From NCBI RefSeq assembly GCF_014191775.1, contig NZ_JACHXA010000001.1, positions 310,001 to 374,000 on the forward strand: DNA of 64,000 nucleotides. The letters run 5' to 3'. Made by a program: the position numbers and the translations under genes. The first letter of the stretch is position 1. Each line of letters opens with the position of its first letter. Source of the stretch: Limibacillus halophilus (GTDB lineage: Bacteria; Pseudomonadota; Alphaproteobacteria; Kiloniellales; CECT-8803). This document shows, piece by piece, positions 2,913 to 51,180 of the stretch. The notes under the pieces are model-generated. The model made no database searches. It was not told the DNA's origin and saw only the letters and a list, made by a program, of their open reading frames with translations.

Positions 2913-3857
2913 TCAACGCCCCGGGCGCTGCAGACGAGCGATCAGGTCGTCGAGTTGCTCCAATGTCGTGTAGTGCAGGACCAAGTCGCCGGCTTCGCCC
3001 TTGTGATTGATTGAAACCTTCAAACCAAGCGCTGCCTGCAGTTCCCGCTCCAACTCAATCGTGTCGGCATCCTTTTCGACCGCGCTGCGTACCTTCTTGA
3101 GCGTCTTGCCGGGCTGCTTGATCGCTTGTGCCAGCCGCTCCGTCTCTCGCACGGACAGGCCCTGCGACGCAATGCGCTTGGCAATCGCCAGCGGATCTGG
3201 AGCGCCGATCAAGGCGCGTGCGTGCCCCGCGCTGATGGTCCCCTCTTCGATCATGCCTTTTACCGCATTTGGCAGGGACAAGAGCCGCAAGGCATTGGCG
3301 ATGTGGCTGCGGCTTTTCCCGACCACCCGGGCGATGGCTTCCTGACTGTTGCCGAAATCACTCTGGAGGCGACGGTAACCCTCCGCCTCTTCTATCGCAT
3401 TGAGGTCCTGACGCTGGACGTTCTCTACGATGGCAATTTCCAAGGTTTGCGCATCGTCGAAATCGCGCTGGATGACCGGAACCTCGTGCAGCTGCGCGCG
3501 CTGCGCAGCCCGCCAGCGCCGCTCACCCGCCACGATCTCAAAGCGGTTCTTCTTTGTCGCGTGCGGTCGTACTAGTATAGGCTGTAAAAGGCCGTTTTCT
3601 TTTATGGACTGCGCCAGGGCATCCAGCGCATCTTCGTCGAAATTGTGGCGCGGCTGAAACGGGCTGGCCTCCAGATGCTCAACGGGAACGAGCTGGCCTG
3701 TGCGCGGCGTTGAGGCCGGGGCTGCGGAGGCGCCTTTCTTGCTACTTTTCTTGGGTTCCGCCGCCTCGGCTTCGCGGACGGCCGACTCTGCGCCTTCCTC
3801 GTTGAAGAGCGCTGCCAATCCACGCCCTAAACCGCGTTTCTTCGGTGTCTGCGCCAT
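2913..3857 (-). CDS. parB: Chromosome partitioning protein ParB
   Basis: DNA-binding CTPase that loads at parS sites and organises the origin region for segregation. The protein has 314 residues. The N-terminal RGLGRGLAALF motif (8-18) is the usual ParA-contacting segment. A CTP-binding GERRWRAAQ motif lies at 111-119 and ENVQRQDLNAIEEA at 145-158. A helix-turn-helix follows at about 168-190, and the tail is the dimerisation domain. The start is the ATG at 3857, preceded by AAGGGGGTGG; an upstream in-frame start at 3911 would run into parA and adds no conserved sequence. parB follows parA by 16 bp in one operon, and three matching parS sites lie within 3.5 kb. Confidence 0.97.
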   Translation of the reverse strand: MAQTPKKRGLGRGLAALFNEEGAESAVREAEAAEPKKSSKKGASAAPASTPRTGQLVPVEHLEASPFQPRHNFDEDALDALAQSIKENGLLQPILVRPHATKKNRFEIVAGERRWRAAQRAQLHEVPVIQRDFDDAQTLEIAIVENVQRQDLNAIEEAEGYRRLQSDFGNSQEAIARVVGKSRSHIANALRLLSLPNAVKGMIEEGTISAGHARALIGAPDPLAIAKRIASQGLSVRETERLAQAIKQPGKTLKKVRSAVEKDADTIELERELQAALGLKVSINHKGEAGDLVLHYTTLEQLDDLIARLQRPGR

Positions 3858-3873
3858 CGTACCACCCCCTTTT

Positions 3874-4704
3874 TTACAGTGCCGCCGCTGGCTTGCGGAA
3901 GCGCTCGCCATCCCGCTTCAAAACCTCCGCGGCCAGCTTTATGTAGGCTTGTGATCCCTGGCAGCGCCAATCATACAGCAGGGCCGGCAAGCCAAAAGAC
4001 GGCGCCTCCGACATGCGCACGTTGCGCGGTATAACTGTTTTGAAAACAAGATCGCCGAAATACTCACGTACATCGTCGGCAACCTGATCCGATAGATTGT
4101 TGCGACGATCGTACATGGTCACGGCGATGCCGTGCAGTTTCAACTCTGGATTGTATAGCTGCTTCACGCGCTCGACGGTTTGCATTAAGTGGCTTAGCCC
4201 CTCCAGGGCGTAGAACTCGGCCTGCAAAGGAACCAATAAACCGTCCGCCGCAACCAATGCATTTAACGTAAGAAGACCCAATGCCGGCGGGCAATCAATC
4301 AGAATATAATCGAAATCTCTTAACACGCTATGAAAGGCGTCCTTCAGTCGATAGACGCGTCTCTCGGTCTCCACCAACTCCAACTCAGCGCCGGAGAGAT
4401 CCGAGGACGACGGCACCAACGACAGCCTTGGCACTTTCGTCGGCGTGACGGCATCGGCCATTACCATGTCATCGAGCAGCACGCGATAAATGTCCCGTTG
4501 CCGATGGGCGCGATCGATGCCCAGTCCGGTGCTGGCATTTCCCTGTGGGTCCAAGTCGATGATGAGCACCTTCTTGTGGCAAGCAGCCAGTGCGGTTGCG
4601 AGATTTACAGCGGTCGTCGTCTTTCCGACCCCACCCTTCTGATTGGCTATGGCGAGTACCCGTGCCCGTTTATCCTGGTCGATGGTTTTCTGATCACGAG
4701 ACAC
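3874..4704 (-). CDS. parA: Chromosome partitioning ATPase ParA
   Basis: Deviant Walker-type ATPase that, with ParB, moves newly replicated origins apart on the nucleoid. The protein has 276 residues. The deviant Walker A KGGVGKTT is at 23-30, followed by the A' box DLDPQGNAS and the Walker B region DYILIDCPPALG. The start is uncertain: a GTG at 4704 has GGGGA eight bases upstream, while a TTG at 4710 has too short a spacing. Either one overlaps the end of rsmG, so the two genes are probably translationally coupled. It is the usual partner of the downstream parB. Confidence 0.96.
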   Translation of the reverse strand: MSRDQKTIDQDKRARVLAIANQKGGVGKTTTAVNLATALAACHKKVLIIDLDPQGNASTGLGIDRAHRQRDIYRVLLDDMVMADAVTPTKVPRLSLVPSSSDLSGAELELVETERRVYRLKDAFHSVLRDFDYILIDCPPALGLLTLNALVAADGLLVPLQAEFYALEGLSHLMQTVERVKQLYNPELKLHGIAVTMYDRRNNLSDQVADDVREYFGDLVFKTVIPRNVRMSEAPSFGLPALLYDWRCQGSQAYIKLAAEVLKRDGERFRKPAAAL

Positions 4705-5320
4705 GGGCAAGATCCCCTATTTCCAATATGATCGCCTCGTCGCTGCTCTTGCTACGATGGCGCTTGACCTTCATCTTCCATTCTGTTGCCGCCGCGGTCA
4801 ATTCCTGCTCTGCTTCGCGACCCTTCAAAAAAAGAGAAATTCCGCCTTGTTGTAAAAATGGTGCAGCATAGCCAAGAAGCTTCGGCAGGGGTGCCAGGGC
4901 CCGGGCGGTTACAACCGGCACCGTGAAGGGCGTCAGCGCTTCGATGCGATCATTGTGGAAGACCGTCGGTGCGCCTGTTTCACGTGAAACATGCCGCATG
5001 AAAGTTACTTTTCGCTGGTCGGCCTCAATCAGATGAACCTCTCTTGCCCCCATGATCGACAGCACCAACCCGGGAAACCCGGCGCCGCTTCCCAGGTCCA
5101 CAATTCTTTGCGACGGCGCATCGCCCGGCAACAGGGACCACAATTGCGCCGAATCCAGAAAATGGCGGCGCCAGGGATCCTTTAGGGTCTCGCGACCGAC
5201 AAGATTGATCGCTTTGTTCCACCGCTGCAGCAAATCCAAGTAGGTTTGCAGCTTTTCCATTGTTTCACGTGAAACACCGGCAAGGTCTGAAAATTCTTCC
5301 GGCGTCATTGGGGGCGCCAT
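4694..5320 (-). CDS. rsmG: 16S rRNA (guanine-527-N7) methyltransferase RsmG
   Basis: SAM-dependent enzyme (formerly GidB) that methylates G527 of 16S rRNA. The protein has 208 residues, normal for the family. The SAM-binding motif VDLGSGAGFPG is at about 74-84 and the acidic IEADQRK at 98-104. Two copies of the pentapeptide VSRET (16-20 and 111-115) are each encoded by a perfect parS site, so DNA-level selection shapes the protein here. The gene begins 11 bp after mnmG stops and overlaps parA. This mnmG-rsmG-parA-parB order is widely conserved. Confidence 0.97.
   Translation of the reverse strand: MAPPMTPEEFSDLAGVSRETMEKLQTYLDLLQRWNKAINLVGRETLKDPWRRHFLDSAQLWSLLPGDAPSQRIVDLGSGAGFPGLVLSIMGAREVHLIEADQRKVTFMRHVSRETGAPTVFHNDRIEALTPFTVPVVTARALAPLPKLLGYAAPFLQQGGISLFLKGREAEQELTAAATEWKMKVKRHRSKSSDEAIILEIGDLARVS
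4976..4991. promoter_or_regulatory. parS: parS site 1 (inside rsmG)
   Basis: A perfect 16-bp palindrome TGTTTCACGTGAAACA, identical to the classical ParB-binding consensus. It lies in frame in rsmG and encodes V111-T115 (VSRET). Confidence 0.95.
5261..5276. promoter_or_regulatory. parS: parS site 2 (5' end of rsmG)
   Basis: A second perfect TGTTTCACGTGAAACA, 285 bp from the first, again in the same rsmG reading frame (V16-T20, VSRET). Confidence 0.95.
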
Positions 5321-7268: not shown

Positions 7269-7284
7269 TGTTTCACGTGAAACA
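7269..7284. promoter_or_regulatory. parS: parS site 3 (between mnmE and mnmG)
   Basis: A third perfect TGTTTCACGTGAAACA, this one in the 111-bp gap between mnmE and mnmG. Together the three sites span 2.3 kb and lie 12.6-15 kb from the putative origin. Confidence 0.95.
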
Positions 7285-18835: not shown

Positions 18836-19909
18836 TCAGTCCTTCCCGCCCGACCAGCCTTTCACCAACTCCACCAACCGGGCGACATGATCGGGCGGTG
18901 TCTCGGGAACGACGCCGTGACCAAGATTGAAGATGAAAGGTCTGCCGGAAAGCTCCTCTAGCACTGCAAGGGCCGCCTCTTCCATCGCAGTCCCTCCCGC
19001 AACCAAGTAAATGGGATCAAGATTACCTTGTAGCACAACGTTTCGATCAAGAGTCTCCGCGGCCCACCGGCAGGATAATCCACTATCAAGTGAAAGCCCC
19101 TGTGCGCCGCTGTGTGTCGCAAAATCCCGGTAGAACTCCCCGGCACCACGAGGAAACAATATGATCGGCACATTCGGATGGCGCTCGCGCACTACCGCAA
19201 CGATCCTTGTCAGGGGATCCAGCGACCAACGTTTCAAGGCAGCAGGCGGCAGGGCGCCCGCCCAGGAATCAAAAATCTGCAACGCCTCGGCGCCCGCCTG
19301 GACCTGAGCGCAAAGGTGCGCCACCACGGCATCCTCAAGCAGGCTAATGAGCTTTCCAAAACCATCCGGATTGGAAAACGCCCAGGTTTTCGCCCGCGTG
19401 AATTGTTTACTGGTTCCGCCCTCGATCATGTAGGTCGCCAATGTCCAGGGAGCGCCGGAGAAGCCGATCAAGGTTGTTTCCGGGGGCAGTGCCGCCCGCA
19501 AACCTCTCACGGCCTCGTAGACCGGGCTCAGGCGCTCGGTCATTCCCTCCGGTTTCAATCGATCAATCGCACCAAGGGTCTCCAGAGCATCAAGCCGCGG
19601 ACCTGAACCCGCTTCGAACCAAACCTTCTGGCCCAATCCATCGGGTATCACGAGAATATCCGAGAACAGGATTGCCGCATCAAAACCGAAACGTCGGATC
19701 GGCTGCAACGTTACTTCCACGGCAAACTCCGGCGTATAGCAAAGATCCAGAAAGGATCCGGCGGTCTTCCGTGTCGCCAGGTACTCAGGCAGGTACCGGC
19801 CAGCCTGGCGCATCAACCATATCGGCGGTTGCTTGGCGTATTTACCGTTTAGCACGGCTAGAAGGGTCTTTTCGTTCCTATTAGCCAAAGCTTGTTCCTG
19901 TTGCTTCAT
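18836..19909 (-). CDS. hemE: Uroporphyrinogen decarboxylase HemE
   Basis: Decarboxylates uroporphyrinogen III to coproporphyrinogen III. The protein has 357 residues. The active-site signature PIWLMRQAGRYLPEY is near the N-terminus and GFSGAPWTLATYMIEGG in the middle. The ATG at 19909 has GAAGGGAAG just upstream; the longer in-frame start at 19981 would extend into the presumed origin and is not family-like. It is the first gene of the leftward hemE-hemH-hemJ unit and the left flank of the origin gap. Confidence 0.97.
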   Translation of the reverse strand: MKQQEQALANRNEKTLLAVLNGKYAKQPPIWLMRQAGRYLPEYLATRKTAGSFLDLCYTPEFAVEVTLQPIRRFGFDAAILFSDILVIPDGLGQKVWFEAGSGPRLDALETLGAIDRLKPEGMTERLSPVYEAVRGLRAALPPETTLIGFSGAPWTLATYMIEGGTSKQFTRAKTWAFSNPDGFGKLISLLEDAVVAHLCAQVQAGAEALQIFDSWAGALPPAALKRWSLDPLTRIVAVVRERHPNVPIILFPRGAGEFYRDFATHSGAQGLSLDSGLSCRWAAETLDRNVVLQGNLDPIYLVAGGTAMEEAALAVLEELSGRPFIFNLGHGVVPETPPDHVARLVELVKGWSGGKD

Positions 19910-20310
19910 AATCTTCCCTTCAACAAAGAATCCTTTTCTAAAAAAAGAAAGGTGGTTGTTGTAGTAGGGGCTGTGAATCACGGTAATTGCGAGTTGTTAG
20001 CGATTCACGCACAGCCTGATATGGACTCTCGTTTTGATGACCCCGTTTGGTGCATAAGTCTGGGGAGCGAATTTCACCGCGCTAGAAACCCTGGCGAGTC
20101 GTTGGTGTTAGTGTCGCCATGGAAAGATGGGCATGACTTGCACGAAGTAAATGCAAAGGCTGGATTTATCCAGAGCATTGTATTCTTTGCACCCAGCAGG
20201 CAGCCTTGAGGATAGCACCGCTGGCGCTGAGGGATTGTTTTGAAGCGCCTGTGCACAGACAGCGATTTGTCCCGGTAATGCACGTTTGATGGGGATAAGA
20301 TTTCGGCACC
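19910..20310. other. oriC: Putative chromosomal replication origin (oriC), hemE-ppsR intergenic region
   Basis: This 401-bp gap separates divergent hemE and ppsR. The same neighbours (hemE and the RP001/DUF299 gene) flank the origins of Caulobacter and Rickettsia. Four 9-mers match the DnaA box TTATNCACA with one mismatch on either strand: 19972-19980 (TGTGAATCA), 20049-20057 (GGTGCATAA), 20166-20174 (TTATCCAGA) and 20290-20298 (TGGGGATAA). Weaker copies lie at 20005-20013 and in the palindrome CTGTGCACAG near 20250. An A-rich stretch at 19912-19965 could be the unwinding element. I saw no exact DnaA box and no TTAA-N7-TTAA CtrA site. It also must hold the hemE and ppsR promoters. Confidence 0.75.
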
Positions 20311-21162
20311 ATGAATGAAGTCGGTTCAATGAAGAAAAATATCGTTCGACATATGCATTTGGTGTCTGATTCTACGGGGGAAACGCTAAACTCCGTAGCC
20401 CGGGCTTGTCTGGTTCAGTTTGAGAATGTGGAGCCACGAGAGCATGTCTGGAGTTTGGTTCGCACCAAAGGACAGATGGAAAAGGTCTTGCTCGGTATCC
20501 AGGACTCCCCCGGCCCGGTGCTAATGACTGTCCTGAACGACGTCTTGCGGCAACGCCTCGTCGAGGGCTGTCGGGAAATGGGCGTTCCCTGTATCCCGGT
20601 TCTGGAGCCGGTCATACACACGCTAGGAGCCTATTTCGGAGCAACCATTAGCGGCCGTCCGGGGCTTCAACACGCGCTTGATGCCGAGTACTTCGATCGT
20701 ATCGAAGCGGTCAACTATGCTCTAGGTCATGACGATGGCCAGCAGAGTGAGAAACTGGCCGAGGCCGATGTGATCCTCGTTGGCGTTTCGCGCACCTCAA
20801 AAACCCCAACCTGCATTTACCTCGCCAATCGTGGTATTCGCGCCGCCAATGTGCCGATTGTTCCTGGCCTTCCGCTTCCCGAACCGCTTTTTTCCCTGAA
20901 AAAGCCGTTGATCGTTGGGCTAACCAAGGATCCTGACCGCCTCGTACAGGTGCGCCGCAATCGTTTGCGAATAGACGAGGATCAGGATGGCGAGAGCGAT
21001 TACGTGGACCCCGAAGCCGTTAGGCAAGAAGTGGCCGACGCCCGTCGGCTCTATAATCGCCAGGGGTGGCCGATCATAGATGTGTCGCGTCGCTCCATCG
21101 AGGAGACGGCCGCTGCGATTCTCTCGCTGCTCGCCAAGCATCGGGAGGTCGATGCGTCATGA
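20311..21162 (+). CDS. ppsR: Pyruvate, phosphate dikinase / PEP synthase regulatory protein PpsR (DUF299)
   Basis: Bifunctional kinase and Pi-dependent pyrophosphorylase that switches PPDK or PEP synthase off and on by phosphorylating the residue next to its catalytic histidine. The protein has 283 residues. The P-loop-like motif GVSRTSKT is at 158-165, and the N-terminal LVSDSTGETLNSVARA is typical. The ATG at 20311 is used; an ATG at 20329 is an alternative and neither has a strong ribosome-binding site. It is the first of five rightward genes, with its stop overlapping maf (ATGA). Confidence 0.93.
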   Translation: MNEVGSMKKNIVRHMHLVSDSTGETLNSVARACLVQFENVEPREHVWSLVRTKGQMEKVLLGIQDSPGPVLMTVLNDVLRQRLVEGCREMGVPCIPVLEPVIHTLGAYFGATISGRPGLQHALDAEYFDRIEAVNYALGHDDGQQSEKLAEADVILVGVSRTSKTPTCIYLANRGIRAANVPIVPGLPLPEPLFSLKKPLIVGLTKDPDRLVQVRRNRLRIDEDQDGESDYVDPEAVRQEVADARRLYNRQGWPIIDVSRRSIEETAAAILSLLAKHREVDAS

Positions 21163-32551: not shown

Positions 32552-33867
32552 AGGATAAACTTAGAGAGATCGGCGTCCTTGACCAAATGCCCAACGCGGT
32601 CCTGTACGTCGCTTGCCTGAATTTCGATAGTCTCGCCGCCGCGATCTGTTGCGGTGAAGGAAATTTCCTCCAGCAGCTTTTCCATGACCGTCTGCAAGCG
32701 CCGCGCGCCGATGTTCTCAACCGTCTCGTTGATCTCGGCGGATAGGCCAGCGATGGCGTCGATGGCGTCGTCGGTGAAGCTCAGGGTCACGTCTTCAGTA
32801 CCCATCAGGGCGATATACTGGGTAATGAGGCTGGCTTCCGGCTCCGTCAGGATGCGCTTGAAATCCTCGCGGGTCAGCGGCTGCAACTCAACGCGGATCG
32901 GCAATCGCCCCTGTAGCTCGGGCAACAGGTCGCTGGGCTTGGCGAGGTGAAAGGCGCCCGAGGCAATGAACAAAATGAAGTCGGTTTTGACGGTCCCGTG
33001 CTTGGTCGCGACCTGGGTGCCTTCGATCAAAGGCAGCAAATCGCGCTGCACGCCCTCGCGACTCACGTCCGCACCGCCGCGCGCGCCTTCCGAGCGGGCG
33101 GTGATCTTGTCGATCTCGTCCAGGAATACGATACCGTTCTGCTCGACGGCACGCAGGGCCTCGCTCTTCACCCGCTCTTCATCGAGCAGCTTGTCGGCCT
33201 CCTGTTCCGTCAGAACCGTCATCGCGTCGCTGATCTTCAGCCGCCGCGGCTTGGTACCGCCGCCGCCCAGCGCCTTGCCGAAGATGTCGCCCAGATCGAT
33301 CATGCCCATCTGAGCGCCCGGCATGCCGGGAACGTCGAGCGTTGGCATCTGCAGGCCACCGGCCGCTGCCACCTGAATCTCGACCTCCTTGTCGTCCAGA
33401 CTGCCTTCGCGCAGCATCTTGCGGAACTTCTGGCGTGTCTCAGCCGAGGCATTCTCTCCCACCAGCACATCCAGCACACGCTCTTCGGCCTGCAACTCTG
33501 CCTTGGCGCTAACCTCGCGGCGCAGACGTTCGCGGGTCATGGTGATCGAGATTTCCACCAAGTCACGGATGATGGATTCCACATCGCGACCGACATAACC
33601 AACTTCAGTGAACTTGGTGGCCTCGATCTTGAGGAAGGGCGCATTGGCGAGCCGGGCCAGCCGGCGGGCGATCTCGGTCTTGCCGACGCCGGTCGGGCCG
33701 ATCATGAGGATGTTCTTCGGCAGAACCTCCTCGCGCAGGGCCTCGGGCAACTGCTGTCGCCGCCAGCGGTTTCTGAGCGCAATGGCGACGGCGCGCTTGG
33801 CGTCGGCTTGTCCGACGATGAAGCGGTCCAGTTCCGAAACCGTTTCGCGGGGCGAGAAGGCGCTCAC
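32548..33867 (-). CDS. hslU: ATP-dependent protease ATPase subunit HslU
   Basis: AAA+ unfoldase that feeds HslV. From the GTG at 33867 the protein has 439 residues, matching the family (about 435-443), and opens with [17 protein letters not shown]. Walker A GPTGVGKT is at 57-64, and DEIDKI marks Walker B. The C-terminus ends in a hydrophobic tail (KFIL) of the kind that docks into HslV. An in-frame ATG at 33927 would add 20 residues inside hslV with no better ribosome-binding site, so the start is uncertain. Confidence 0.95.
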
Positions 33868-33889
33868 GGCGGAGGCCTGACGCTCTCCG

Positions 33890-34456
33890 CTATTTGGCCG
33901 GAAGGCTTTCGACGACGATTGAGTCATTGGTGTAAATACAAATTTCCGCTGCGATTTTCAGGGCTTTTCGGGCTATGGCTTCGGCCTCCAGCCCGTCGAT
34001 GTCGATAAGCGCTCTGGCCGCCGACAGTGCAAAGGAACCACCGGAACCGATGCCGATCAGGCCATCTTCCGGCTCCAGCACGTCGCCGGTACCGGTCAGT
34101 ACCAAGGAATGCTCCGCATCGGCCACCGCCATCATCGCTTCCAGGCGGCGCAGATAGCGGTCGGTGCGCCAGTCTTTTGCAAGTTCGACGCAAGCGCGTA
34201 CGAGCTGGCCGGGATGCTTTTCAAGCTTCGCCTCCAACCGTTCGAACAAGGTGAAGGCATCCGCGGTCGCGCCTGCAAATCCTGCGATCACGCGTCCGTC
34301 GCCCAGCGGTCGCACCTTGCGTGCGTTGGACTTGATAACGGTGTTTCCTAGCGTTACCTGCCCATCGCCCGCAATGACCACGCGGTCACCCTTGCGGACC
34401 GAAAGGATTGTTGTCCCATGCCAGACGGGACCGGATTGGTTTTGTTGTTCGCTCAT
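33890..34456 (-). CDS. hslV: ATP-dependent protease subunit HslV
   Basis: Threonine protease of the HslUV machine. The protein has 188 residues. The catalytic threonine begins [20 protein letters not shown] after a propeptide of about 13 residues ending WHG, which must be removed to free it; this leader is usual in alphaproteobacteria. The ATG at 34456 is preferred over an upstream one at 34480. hslU follows 22 bp downstream. Confidence 0.96.
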
Positions 34457-34525
34457 GACCCGGCATAGATGGCCCGACACCGCCGCCGGGTCAAGCGATC
34501 ACATGAAAACAAGCACCAGGGAAGG

Positions 34526-35851
34526 CTAATTCAATTGCACGTTCAGGTGTTTCAGGCCCTCCAGGATCGGGATGAAGAAATTGACACCTATCGAAGTTCC
34601 CGAACGTCCGCCGTCTACCCCGGCATAAGAAATCCCGACAGCGTTTCCGTTAGCATCGATCAACGCTCCTCCGCTGTTGCCGCCTTGTATGTCGACGTCC
34701 GCTTGGATAACCGGCAAACCTTCCTGGTTTAGGATGAAATTGCTCACGATTCCACGAGTGACTGTCCCGGATAGGCTTTCAAAAAGCGGCGCACCGACCG
34801 CAAGCACTTCCTCGGTCACGGCGAGCGGTTCAGTACGAACAGGGAGAGGTTTTCCTTCACCTTCTTGTAGCTGTAACAGGGCGACGTCACGCCTTGCGTC
34901 ACGCCTCAGCACCGTAGCGATCACTCGCCTGCCGTCTCGGAACTCGATCGGCGCTTCTCTGGATTCACCGACAACATGGTAATTTGTGAGAAGAAGCGTC
35001 GGTGTAATGAAAAAGCCGGATCCGTGTCCCTTTCCAGCTCCGACGACGACCACGCCATCACGGATGTCTTCGATTTGCTCCGCGACCGGCGCATTGAAGC
35101 GTTTCCGCTGTTCCAGAATAAGCGGCTCGGTCGTCGGTTCGGCGCCTCCGGTTTGAAGCCCGGTGTTGCGTTGCAGTGTGCCGATAAACGCTTCGTCAGC
35201 GACAAGAGTTTGCGCAGAGTCCGCTATCGCGCCAACGAACAATGAAAAGAGAAAACTCTGACTTTCCCGTGGTTCCGTAACTTCGTAGTAACCCGGCAGT
35301 GATTTTTCGAACACCACGCGCCGCTCGAAAACCGAGAAAAGTTGCCATTCTATGGAAAGGAGCGCTTTACCGCTCTCTTTGCCGCTCCAAACGCCTTTCC
35401 AGGTATCCCAGTCCCGGCAAAGCGATGCCGAGATATTTTTGACCTTTGCACCAAGCAGAAACAGGGGGCTTTCTGCGCGATTGAAGGATTGCGTAAAAAG
35501 TCCACCCGAACCACCCGGTACGTTCAACCCCTTGTTCCAAAGCACCTTCTCCACTTCCGTAGAGACCTCAGCGTCGTCGTCGTTAATGCGACCCGGTTCC
35601 CAAATGATGTGGGTATCAGCCGCGAAGCATTCGTAGAGCACAAACTCGTACCCGCCGATATTGGCGCCTCTCGGTAGGTCAACCAATGTGCCGTCATATG
35701 CTATTGGCGCCAAATTCTCGCGCACCGGGAGCGGTGCAACCGGGTTAGATGGCTGCGGCAAGGGCGCATTGATCTTTGGCGCGGTCGATTGACATGCGGC
35801 TACGGCAAGAAATGGCACTAGAATAAGGCTTCGTAAAAGGTATCTTGGCAT
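34526..35851 (-). CDS. Trypsin-like serine protease lipoprotein with uncharacterised N-terminal domain
   Basis: A 441-residue predicted lipoprotein with lipobox LAVAAC (C20). Residues 21-45 are a proline-rich linker. Residues about 50-250 form a domain I do not recognise. Residues about 262-441 are a trypsin-like/DegP-type protease fold with the full triad H292 (TNYHVV), D322 (RRDVALLQL) and S393 (QGGNSGG). No PDZ domain is present. It is probably periplasmic, anchored to a membrane. It stands alone between hslV and hisB, divergent from hisB, where related genomes usually have nothing of this kind. Confidence 0.85.
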   Translation of the reverse strand: MPRYLLRSLILVPFLAVAACQSTAPKINAPLPQPSNPVAPLPVRENLAPIAYDGTLVDLPRGANIGGYEFVLYECFAADTHIIWEPGRINDDDAEVSTEVEKVLWNKGLNVPGGSGGLFTQSFNRAESPLFLLGAKVKNISASLCRDWDTWKGVWSGKESGKALLSIEWQLFSVFERRVVFEKSLPGYYEVTEPRESQSFLFSLFVGAIADSAQTLVADEAFIGTLQRNTGLQTGGAEPTTEPLILEQRKRFNAPVAEQIEDIRDGVVVVGAGKGHGSGFFITPTLLLTNYHVVGESREAPIEFRDGRRVIATVLRRDARRDVALLQLQEGEGKPLPVRTEPLAVTEEVLAVGAPLFESLSGTVTRGIVSNFILNQEGLPVIQADVDIQGGNSGGALIDANGNAVGISYAGVDGGRSGTSIGVNFFIPILEGLKHLNVQLN

Positions 35852-36058
35852 GATCCCCCCTTCAGTCGTTCTTATTTTGTTTTTCTTAAGGGAAAGAAAG
35901 CAGACTGGCCGCGGCGGATCAACCAGGCCTTGTGCTTTGAAGACAAATTTTCACGTAACGCGTCAGGATGCGATTGTGCCGTGGCCAAGTGCCACGCAAG
36001 CTGGTAAAAGTCCCGCCATCATTGGGGGTAGCCTGACGAGGAGAGGCGGCAAAGGACG

Positions 36059-50694: not shown

Positions 50695-51180
50695 TTCTCA
50701 GCAGGTCTCTCTGTTTGCGGTCAAAGGGATGTGGTCAAAGGGGCGCGGCAAGGCGGACCAGGCTCGTGGCGATTTCAGCCAATTGGAGTGATACACGATG
50801 CGACGGATGCCAGCCAAGGCCCGTTGCACCGCAAGGACCAACGGCGGATTGATCGCAAGCCGCCCTCAGGTCGAATTGGCCGCAGCGGGATTCGAGCGCG
50901 GGCATTTTCGACCGCCATCTTAATTCCCTACACCCTGAAAAAACGGCATAAGCCGATTCGCAGAAATGCACGAGTTTGTAAAACTGTGCGAATCCAGTGG
51001 CTTGTTCACACTTCTTTTACTATTGTATTAGATAAGTTATGAGTACGTTAAGGAGTTTGGGTTTTCTGAACGAGCCCTCGGGAAGGCTGAGCGGTCGGAT
51101 TGATGGAATGGGATATCGACACCGACGTTCAGATTTCGTTGCGCGGGCGGTTTATAATAAAAACAGGGGACTTTGGTGAA
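50695..51180. other. Intergenic region between pgk and fadL
   Basis: A 486-bp gap between divergent pgk and fadL. I see no convincing gene. A perfect TATAAT lies at 51153-51158 with no good -35; a transcript from it would start just ahead of the fadL ribosome-binding site AGGGGA. A weak match to the palindrome found upstream of the merR gene lies at 51036-51051 (ends ACGTTAA). Open frames across the gap are not family-like. Confidence 0.5.

Follow-up and report, generated by a model that had tools for sequence, protein, structure and literature searches.

The hemE–ppsR gap of Limibacillus halophilus as the probable chromosome origin, with a trio-like tract beside a degenerate DnaA box

The origins of Caulobacter crescentus (Cori) and Rickettsia prowazekii (oriC) lie between hemE and a COG1806 gene, span about 400 bp or more, contain an AT-rich stretch, and have parS sites some kb away (PMC1914354, PMC4468827). 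The DnaA boxes of Cori are G-boxes of moderate strength, in which a T is replaced by G, and W-boxes, which are very weak (PMC4468827), and CtrA-like motifs are reported for several Rickettsiales origins, some others having none (PMC1914354). In the BUS of B. subtilis, a DnaA box is followed by a short GC-rich spacer and by DnaA-trios of the type 3'-GAT-5' (PMC6669920, PMC8287927), and the GC-rich gap between box and trios averages 4 bp (PMC8287927). According to the structural study (PMC10721633), the middle A of the trio is held by Asn187 of B. subtilis DnaA, C being functional in this position as well and G or T only poorly so; the neighboring G of the trio is held by Arg202 and Glu228. Here, we compare these systems with a hemE–ppsR gap that shares the flanking genes with the former and a box-and-tract architecture with the latter.

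The gap and its place on the chromosome

The window, i.e., the whole stretch of 64,000 nucleotides that was analyzed, corresponds to positions 310001–374000 of contig C1; the genome comprises 3.48 Mb and 18 contigs. The hemE–ppsR intergenic gap of the window (positions 19910–20310) very probably serves as chromosome origin in this alphaproteobacterium. The limits given by the first-pass annotation are exact, as the 401-bp gap extends between the hemE ATG at 19909 and the ppsR start at 20311. On the left, hemE (18836–19909, minus strand) scored 399 bits against TIGR01464 with its cut-off of 303. The right-hand gene (20311–21162, plus strand) belongs to the ppsR/COG1806 (DUF299) family; it scored 335 bits against NF003742, which represents the PPDK/PEP-synthase regulator family (cut-off 225), and stayed under the cut-off of the narrower PpsR model NF049928 (163 of 350). 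The gap is thus indeed bordered by the genes that flank the Caulobacter and Rickettsia origins, and the divergent transcription described by the annotation is real, with both genes reading outwards. An Rfam scan of the window gave no family over threshold, a tRNA scan found none in the window, and direct and inverted repeats in the gap were limited to short imperfect pairs. A 105-codon open reading frame on the plus strand (19892–20209) spans the gap and resembles a chance frame over an origin.

This gene neighborhood was examined in relatives. A ppsR gene was present in all 58 genomes searched (own included), the nearest named relatives by this gene being Denitrobaculum, Kiloniellaceae, Pelagibius, and Kiloniella, so that the order is probably Kiloniellales. 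Among the 30 order loci fetched, hemE adjoined ppsR in 28; in the other two (L017 and L020), hemE was not seen in the DNA examined, and they were left out of the order gaps. The same adjacency was found in 50 of the 54 wider loci, and the other four, one of them from an Actinomycetota MAG, were without hemE in the DNA examined. Four of the 50 wider gaps were dropped as duplicates of order gaps, and the final set therefore comprised 74 gaps (28 order and 46 wider). The order gaps run from the aligned hemE start to the aligned ppsR start and may include a few codons.

Within the window, the cumulative GC skew reaches its lowest value at 19938. To the left of the gap on contig C1, nine of ten sampled stretches were negative (−0.058 to +0.009, the lone non-negative value being +0.009 at 280 kb), and to the right, all 11 stretches were positive (+0.010 to +0.072). 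Within this otherwise positive right arm, a local dip to negative skew was observed at window positions 33000–36000. The first-pass annotation had named a skew minimum elsewhere on the chromosome as the observation that would speak against an origin in the gap, and none was found in the window and the spaced stretches on seven of the 18 contigs. It could be argued that the origin lies elsewhere, e.g., beside dnaA, and that the gap is merely nearby, as dnaA is on a separate contig (C3:384900) and 11 of the 18 contigs (C8–C18, 0.74 Mb) were outside the skew sample. However, a second change from negative to positive skew was absent from the 20 spaced stretches on C2–C7, including the stretches flanking dnaA, which had negative skew on both sides, and parS was found near the gap only. 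We consider an origin elsewhere extremely unlikely. Of two complete relatives, G015 switches its skew sign at its own ppsR, apart from a single faint deviation at 3.95 Mb. The other, G004, has a weak skew that changes sign roughly 0.15–0.4 Mb off ppsR, which counts against the assignment.

A genome-wide search with the parS consensus yielded three perfect sites, at 4976–4991 (contig C1 position 314976), 5261–5276, and 7269–7284, which are the only ones in the genome and lie 12.6–15 kb from the gap. No further site with up to two mismatches was found elsewhere in the genome, and a reversed control pattern gave none. The sites are accompanied by parB (2913–3857, minus strand; 187 bits against TIGR00180, cut-off 58), by an adjoining gene for a parA-like ATPase (3874–4710, minus strand), and by rsmG, mnmG, and mnmE. 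The ATPase is matched by ParA-family models, none of them over cut-off among the 25 matches listed, and parS near the origin together with parAB corresponds to a ParABS system whose ParA-like member is under the cut-offs of the models shown. The distance of some kb between parS and origin is also a likeness to the Caulobacter and Rickettsia origins.

As the gap is singled out by its skew and conservation, by its neighboring genes, and by the location of parS, its best explanation is that it is the chromosome origin, to which we assign a probability of about 0.9. This identity rests on computation and is well supported, so that the probable replication origin of the first-pass annotation can be upheld. 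The origin as such is of the expected kind, namely a further member of the hemE/COG1806 origins.

DnaA boxes, AT-rich DNA, and a trio-like tract

Exactly as annotated, four 9-mers in the gap are one mismatch away from TTATNCACA, starting at 19972 (minus), 20049 (minus), 20166 (plus), and 20290 (minus), with a chance expectation of about 0.1 for the gap. The window as a whole has 21 such boxes versus 18.2 from shuffles. In the 28 order gaps, own included, 58 one-mismatch boxes were counted versus 7.0 in base shuffles. A perfect box is absent, again as annotated, since none of the 15 perfect TTATNCACA sites of the genome falls in the gap. The box closest to the tract described below, TGATTCACA (19972–19980, minus strand), reads TGTGAATCA on the plus strand, has two mismatches to TTATCCACA, and encloses a GANTC site at 19975. 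It is G-box-like in bearing the T-to-G change of the Cori G-boxes, and weak boxes with this change are a feature that the gap shares with Cori (PMC4468827). The other three boxes are TTATGCACC (20049–20057, minus strand), for which the closest relative, L010, has a box at the aligned position, TTATCCAGA (20166–20174, plus strand), which was found by box search and alignment, and TTATCCCCA (20290–20298, minus strand).

The A-rich stretch of the annotation corresponds to AAAAAAAGAAAGG at 19940–19952. It is part of AT-rich DNA at 19910–19952 that overlaps the hemE leader and is the likely DNA unwinding element. The 60-bp stretches starting at 19905–19908 are 68% AT; only 29 start positions in the window attain the best 60-bp value of the gap, and aligned relatives are AT-rich at the corresponding place. 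Among all 60-bp stretches of the window, AT content is highest (70%) near 51005, within 50992–51072, at a distance from the origin. The gap therefore has what is expected of an origin, a box cluster above chance together with an AT-rich stretch, the boxes being degenerate.

An alignment of 19 gaps contained a conserved block on the hemE side. On the plus strand, the order there is AT-rich DNA, the tract TGG TTG TTG TAG TAG (19953–19967), the GC-rich 4-nt spacer GGGC (19968–19971), and the box at 19972–19980; as read from the box, the tract is 3'-GAT GAT GTT GTT GGT-5'. Box, 4-nt GC-rich spacer, trinucleotide tract, and AT-rich DNA follow each other as in the B. subtilis BUS (DnaA-box#6/7, 3'-GAT-5'), the tract occupies the strand that extends 5' from the box, as it does there, and the guanine of each trio is kept. 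Unlike the BUS, the tract often has T as the middle base, with two canonical TAG trios only, and the gap has no clear tandem box, as no second box in tandem was recognizable by eye. A tandem GTGGATAAgnGGATAAC-like element at columns 338–355 of alignment A1 recurs in many order gaps and is degenerate in the own genome and its family relative.

The BUS definition of PMC8287927 comprises a box with up to two mismatches to TTATCCACA, a spacer of 0–16 bp, and at least three NAN trios in register. In the gap, TGATTCACA is such a box and the spacer GGGC has 4 nt, and the tract has two TAG trios in register that are followed by TTG TTG TGG. When the published rule was applied to one strand, with a minimum of three NAN trios required at up to 16 bp from a box, no module was found in the own gap; some match was obtained in six of the 28 order gaps, clearly at the trio site in L028 only. 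A relaxed scorer and the pattern CACA-N3-6-(CWA)x4, i.e., T[AT]G x4, were devised after viewing the alignment, which prompted us to allow a middle T. With this scorer, the own gap reached a module score of 14.0, or 12.0 if middle A alone counts, and the null maximum was 10.0 (3952 genomic 404-bp segments, both strands). In comparison to dinucleotide shuffles of each gap, a p of 0.05 was attained by 21 of the 28 order gaps and 23 of the 46 wider gaps, and not by the other seven and 23, respectively.

The pattern matches once in the own genome, at the gap tract. The 58 order genomes had 22 matches versus 21 for the reversed control; 14 of the 22, in 14 genomes of five genera, lay upstream of ppsR at a distance of 336–799 bp and with matching orientation, and 44 of the 58 genomes had no match at the gap. 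The 385 class genomes had 45 matches versus about 80 for the reversed control (table counted by hand). Since, over whole genomes, the pattern is not more frequent than the control, only its place is informative. Of 44 distinct places (two of the 45 matches overlap), 11 are beside hemE, namely the own locus, that of G003, and nine loci from five families that do not belong to the order. The 400-bp stretches past the tract in these nine loci together contain 41 one-mismatch boxes versus 3.8 in base shuffles. A perfect TTATCCACA is found directly beside the tract in L322 and L323, and TTATTCACA is found there in L328. In six of the nine, hemE is present and ppsR was not seen in the DNA examined. 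The box-and-tract module beside hemE, with ppsR not seen in the DNA examined, was noted in L317–L320, L242, and L328.

As these six loci show hemE and no ppsR, the tract tracks hemE rather than ppsR, and the AT-rich DNA with the T[AT]G stretch could in principle be a promoter or leader of hemE whose conservation is unrelated to DnaA; its position 40–60 nt upstream of the hemE ATG would fit this. However, the skew minimum falls inside the stretch, the spacing to the box is fixed, with perfect boxes in some loci, and the nine loci are enriched in boxes as given above. Moreover, other origins keep hemE and not COG1806 as a neighbor, e.g., in Wolbachia (PMC1914354). A role for hemE expression with no connection to DnaA is therefore very unlikely in our view. 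The stretch may have a double role as hemE leader or promoter and in opening by DnaA, and hemE rather than ppsR seems to be the steadier neighbor of the origin.

Conservation and architecture indicate that tract and box probably form the opening module of this origin. DnaA would bind to the degenerate boxes across the 400 bp, chiefly to TGATTCACA at 19972–19980 on the minus strand, and from there a DnaA oligomer would extend onto the plus-strand tract at 19953–19967, with about one trinucleotide per DnaA subunit. The oligomer would open the AT-rich DNA adjoining hemE, after which the helicase could be loaded and forks would depart in both directions. Alternatively, the gap could be an origin that is opened by loop-back as in E. 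coli, in which case DnaA at distant boxes would grab T-rich or TTGT-type single strand returned by bending, and the tract would be a DUE motif with no trio register. The tract indeed contains TTGTTGT and only two canonical TAG trios, and the motifs 5'-TTGT-3' and TTATT in the E. coli DUE are required by E. coli DnaA; both origins have T-rich single-strand motifs close to their DnaA boxes (PMC10797057). On the other hand, many relatives have the tract 4–5 nt from the box and with a period of 3 nt, which agrees with the continuous model, and the gap is without an IHF site. A periodic tract beside a box and other flanking genes also set the gap apart from E. coli oriC. We regard loop-back as unlikely and prefer the extension of DnaA from the adjacent box onto the tract.

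CtrA, IHF, and GANTC sites

The genome encodes CtrA (389 bits against NF045991, cut-off 350). The annotation had noted no clear CtrA site, and TTAA-N7-TTAA with up to one mismatch has in fact no match in the gap; with two mismatches, there are two places. The IHF consensus WATCAN5WTR was not found in the gap on either strand. In both respects, the gap is unlike the Cori type. The missing CtrA sites, in spite of an encoded CtrA, suggest a control unlike that of Cori, and CtrA control at the origin is probably absent. The annotation's view that control may differ from Caulobacter is thereby supported for CtrA. As Cori uses G-boxes and W-boxes, the lack of a perfect box does not in itself separate the gap from Caulobacter.

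Five GANTC sites, putative targets of CcrM, lie at 19928–20100 (starting at 19928, 19975, 20002, 20024, and 20096). At least five GANTC in 404 bp occurred in 0.5% of 8040 windows from sampled own-genome DNA. The density was 7.7 per kb in the 28 order gaps versus 2.7 in sampled genome DNA, the baseline being whole-genome samples rather than other intergenic DNA. In CcrM-bearing orders, GANTC is enriched in intergenic DNA, the average being above 1.5-fold, and Caulobacter initiation control does not need CcrM methylation (PMC3973325). A CcrM-like methylase of the own genome has a RAMA domain over cut-off and, among NCBIfam models, is matched best by that of CcrM (NF050803), with 614 bits under the cut-off of 830. 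GcrA is over cut-off with PF07750 and under that of NF050816. The control genome of Sulfolobus acidocaldarius also exceeded the cut-off of this Pfam model, an unexpected outcome for a regulator of Alphaproteobacteria. SciP (PF06627) had no match in the own genome, and the Caulobacter control matched. The timing of initiation may involve GANTC methylation.

The DnaA residue at the place of Asn187

The own DnaA is a normal DnaA (TIGR00362 match). In an alignment with B. subtilis DnaA, Lys228 and Glu254 are at the places of Arg202 and Glu228, which we list as a likeness, and, unlike in B. subtilis, a tyrosine (Tyr213) is at the place of Asn187. Tyr was found at this place in all 30 order DnaAs typed (57 of the 58 genomes had a match, and 30 were fetched). 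Among 26 named DnaAs, some from Kiloniella, there were 20 with Tyr, four with Asn, and one each with His and Ser. Further Asn-type lineages were sought in 40 class genomes listed as 99–100% complete (contig 1, first 20 kb or less) and none was found there; this search gave five DnaAs, four with Tyr and one with Phe, and one hemE–ppsR pair without a DnaA. A tree of 61 DnaAs placed all four Asn sequences in one clade with full support.

For a tally of middle bases, blocks were picked by the third base G only, blind to the middle base. Tyr genomes had T60 A38 G26 C1 (27 of 33 typed gaps passing the filter), and Asn genomes had A16 C2 T2 G0 (all four gaps passing). Among the 27 Tyr gaps, L010 and L055 were anchored off site, and the sole middle C came from L055. 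Fisher's test of A/C versus T in Asn versus Tyr genomes gave p 3.6e-5 with relatedness ignored. The higher A/C fraction in Asn genomes was also seen with a Mann-Whitney test (p 0.0023; 22 Tyr and three Asn tracts, L010, L055, and duplicates having been dropped by hand). A middle-blind tally of 12 gaps yielded TTG 26, TAG 15, TGG 6, and TCG 0, in comparison to a whole-gap background of TGG 337, TTG 288, TCG 224, and TAG 97.

Mostly A/C-centered tracts of the Reyranella/Enhydrobacter type were present in the first 100 gap bases of L077, L079, L082, L083, L085, and L086, examples being TAG TAG CAG TAG TAG and TAG TAG GAG TCG TAG. The four typed members of this group (L077, L079, L082, and L085) have Asn in DnaA, and L083 and L086 resemble the Asn clade by tract alone. 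As the Asn type is one clade, the covariation of tract and residue is a single evolutionary contrast and not proof. Any code would have to be a preference, because L085 with its Asn has two T-centered trios and many Tyr gaps have A-centered ones. That Tyr in place of Asn goes with tolerance of a middle T is therefore put forward tentatively, on the basis of sequence comparison. Equally doubtful, though conceivable, is a one-residue co-evolution code, in which Tyr-DnaA would read 3'-G[AT]T-5' and shun C, and Asn-DnaA would read A or C.

Deviating trios have been considered before. In a survey of 2021, 15% of genomes yielded no DnaA-trios, and deviating trios that lack the middle adenine were suspected (PMC8287927). 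The structural study of 2023 raised a possible range of sequences read by DnaA homologs (PMC10721633). In the literature searched, to which subscription papers mostly did not belong, DnaA-trio and Alphaproteobacteria occurred together only in an epsilonproteobacterial study, Kiloniella with a replication origin was not found, and among the matches listed, Asn187 was named by PMC10721633 only.

The deviant tract described here is conserved and lies beside perfect DnaA boxes in some relatives. As there is a deviant tract, a changed reading residue, and a clade in which both are changed, the base-capture model is testable by simple swaps. If our suggestion is right, the T-tolerant tract with a Tyr-type DnaA would be a new variant of the unwinding module, Reyranella/Enhydrobacter would have changed both partners, DnaA and tract, and many alphaproteobacterial origins would carry a T-tolerant unwinding module that is missed by the published trio rule.
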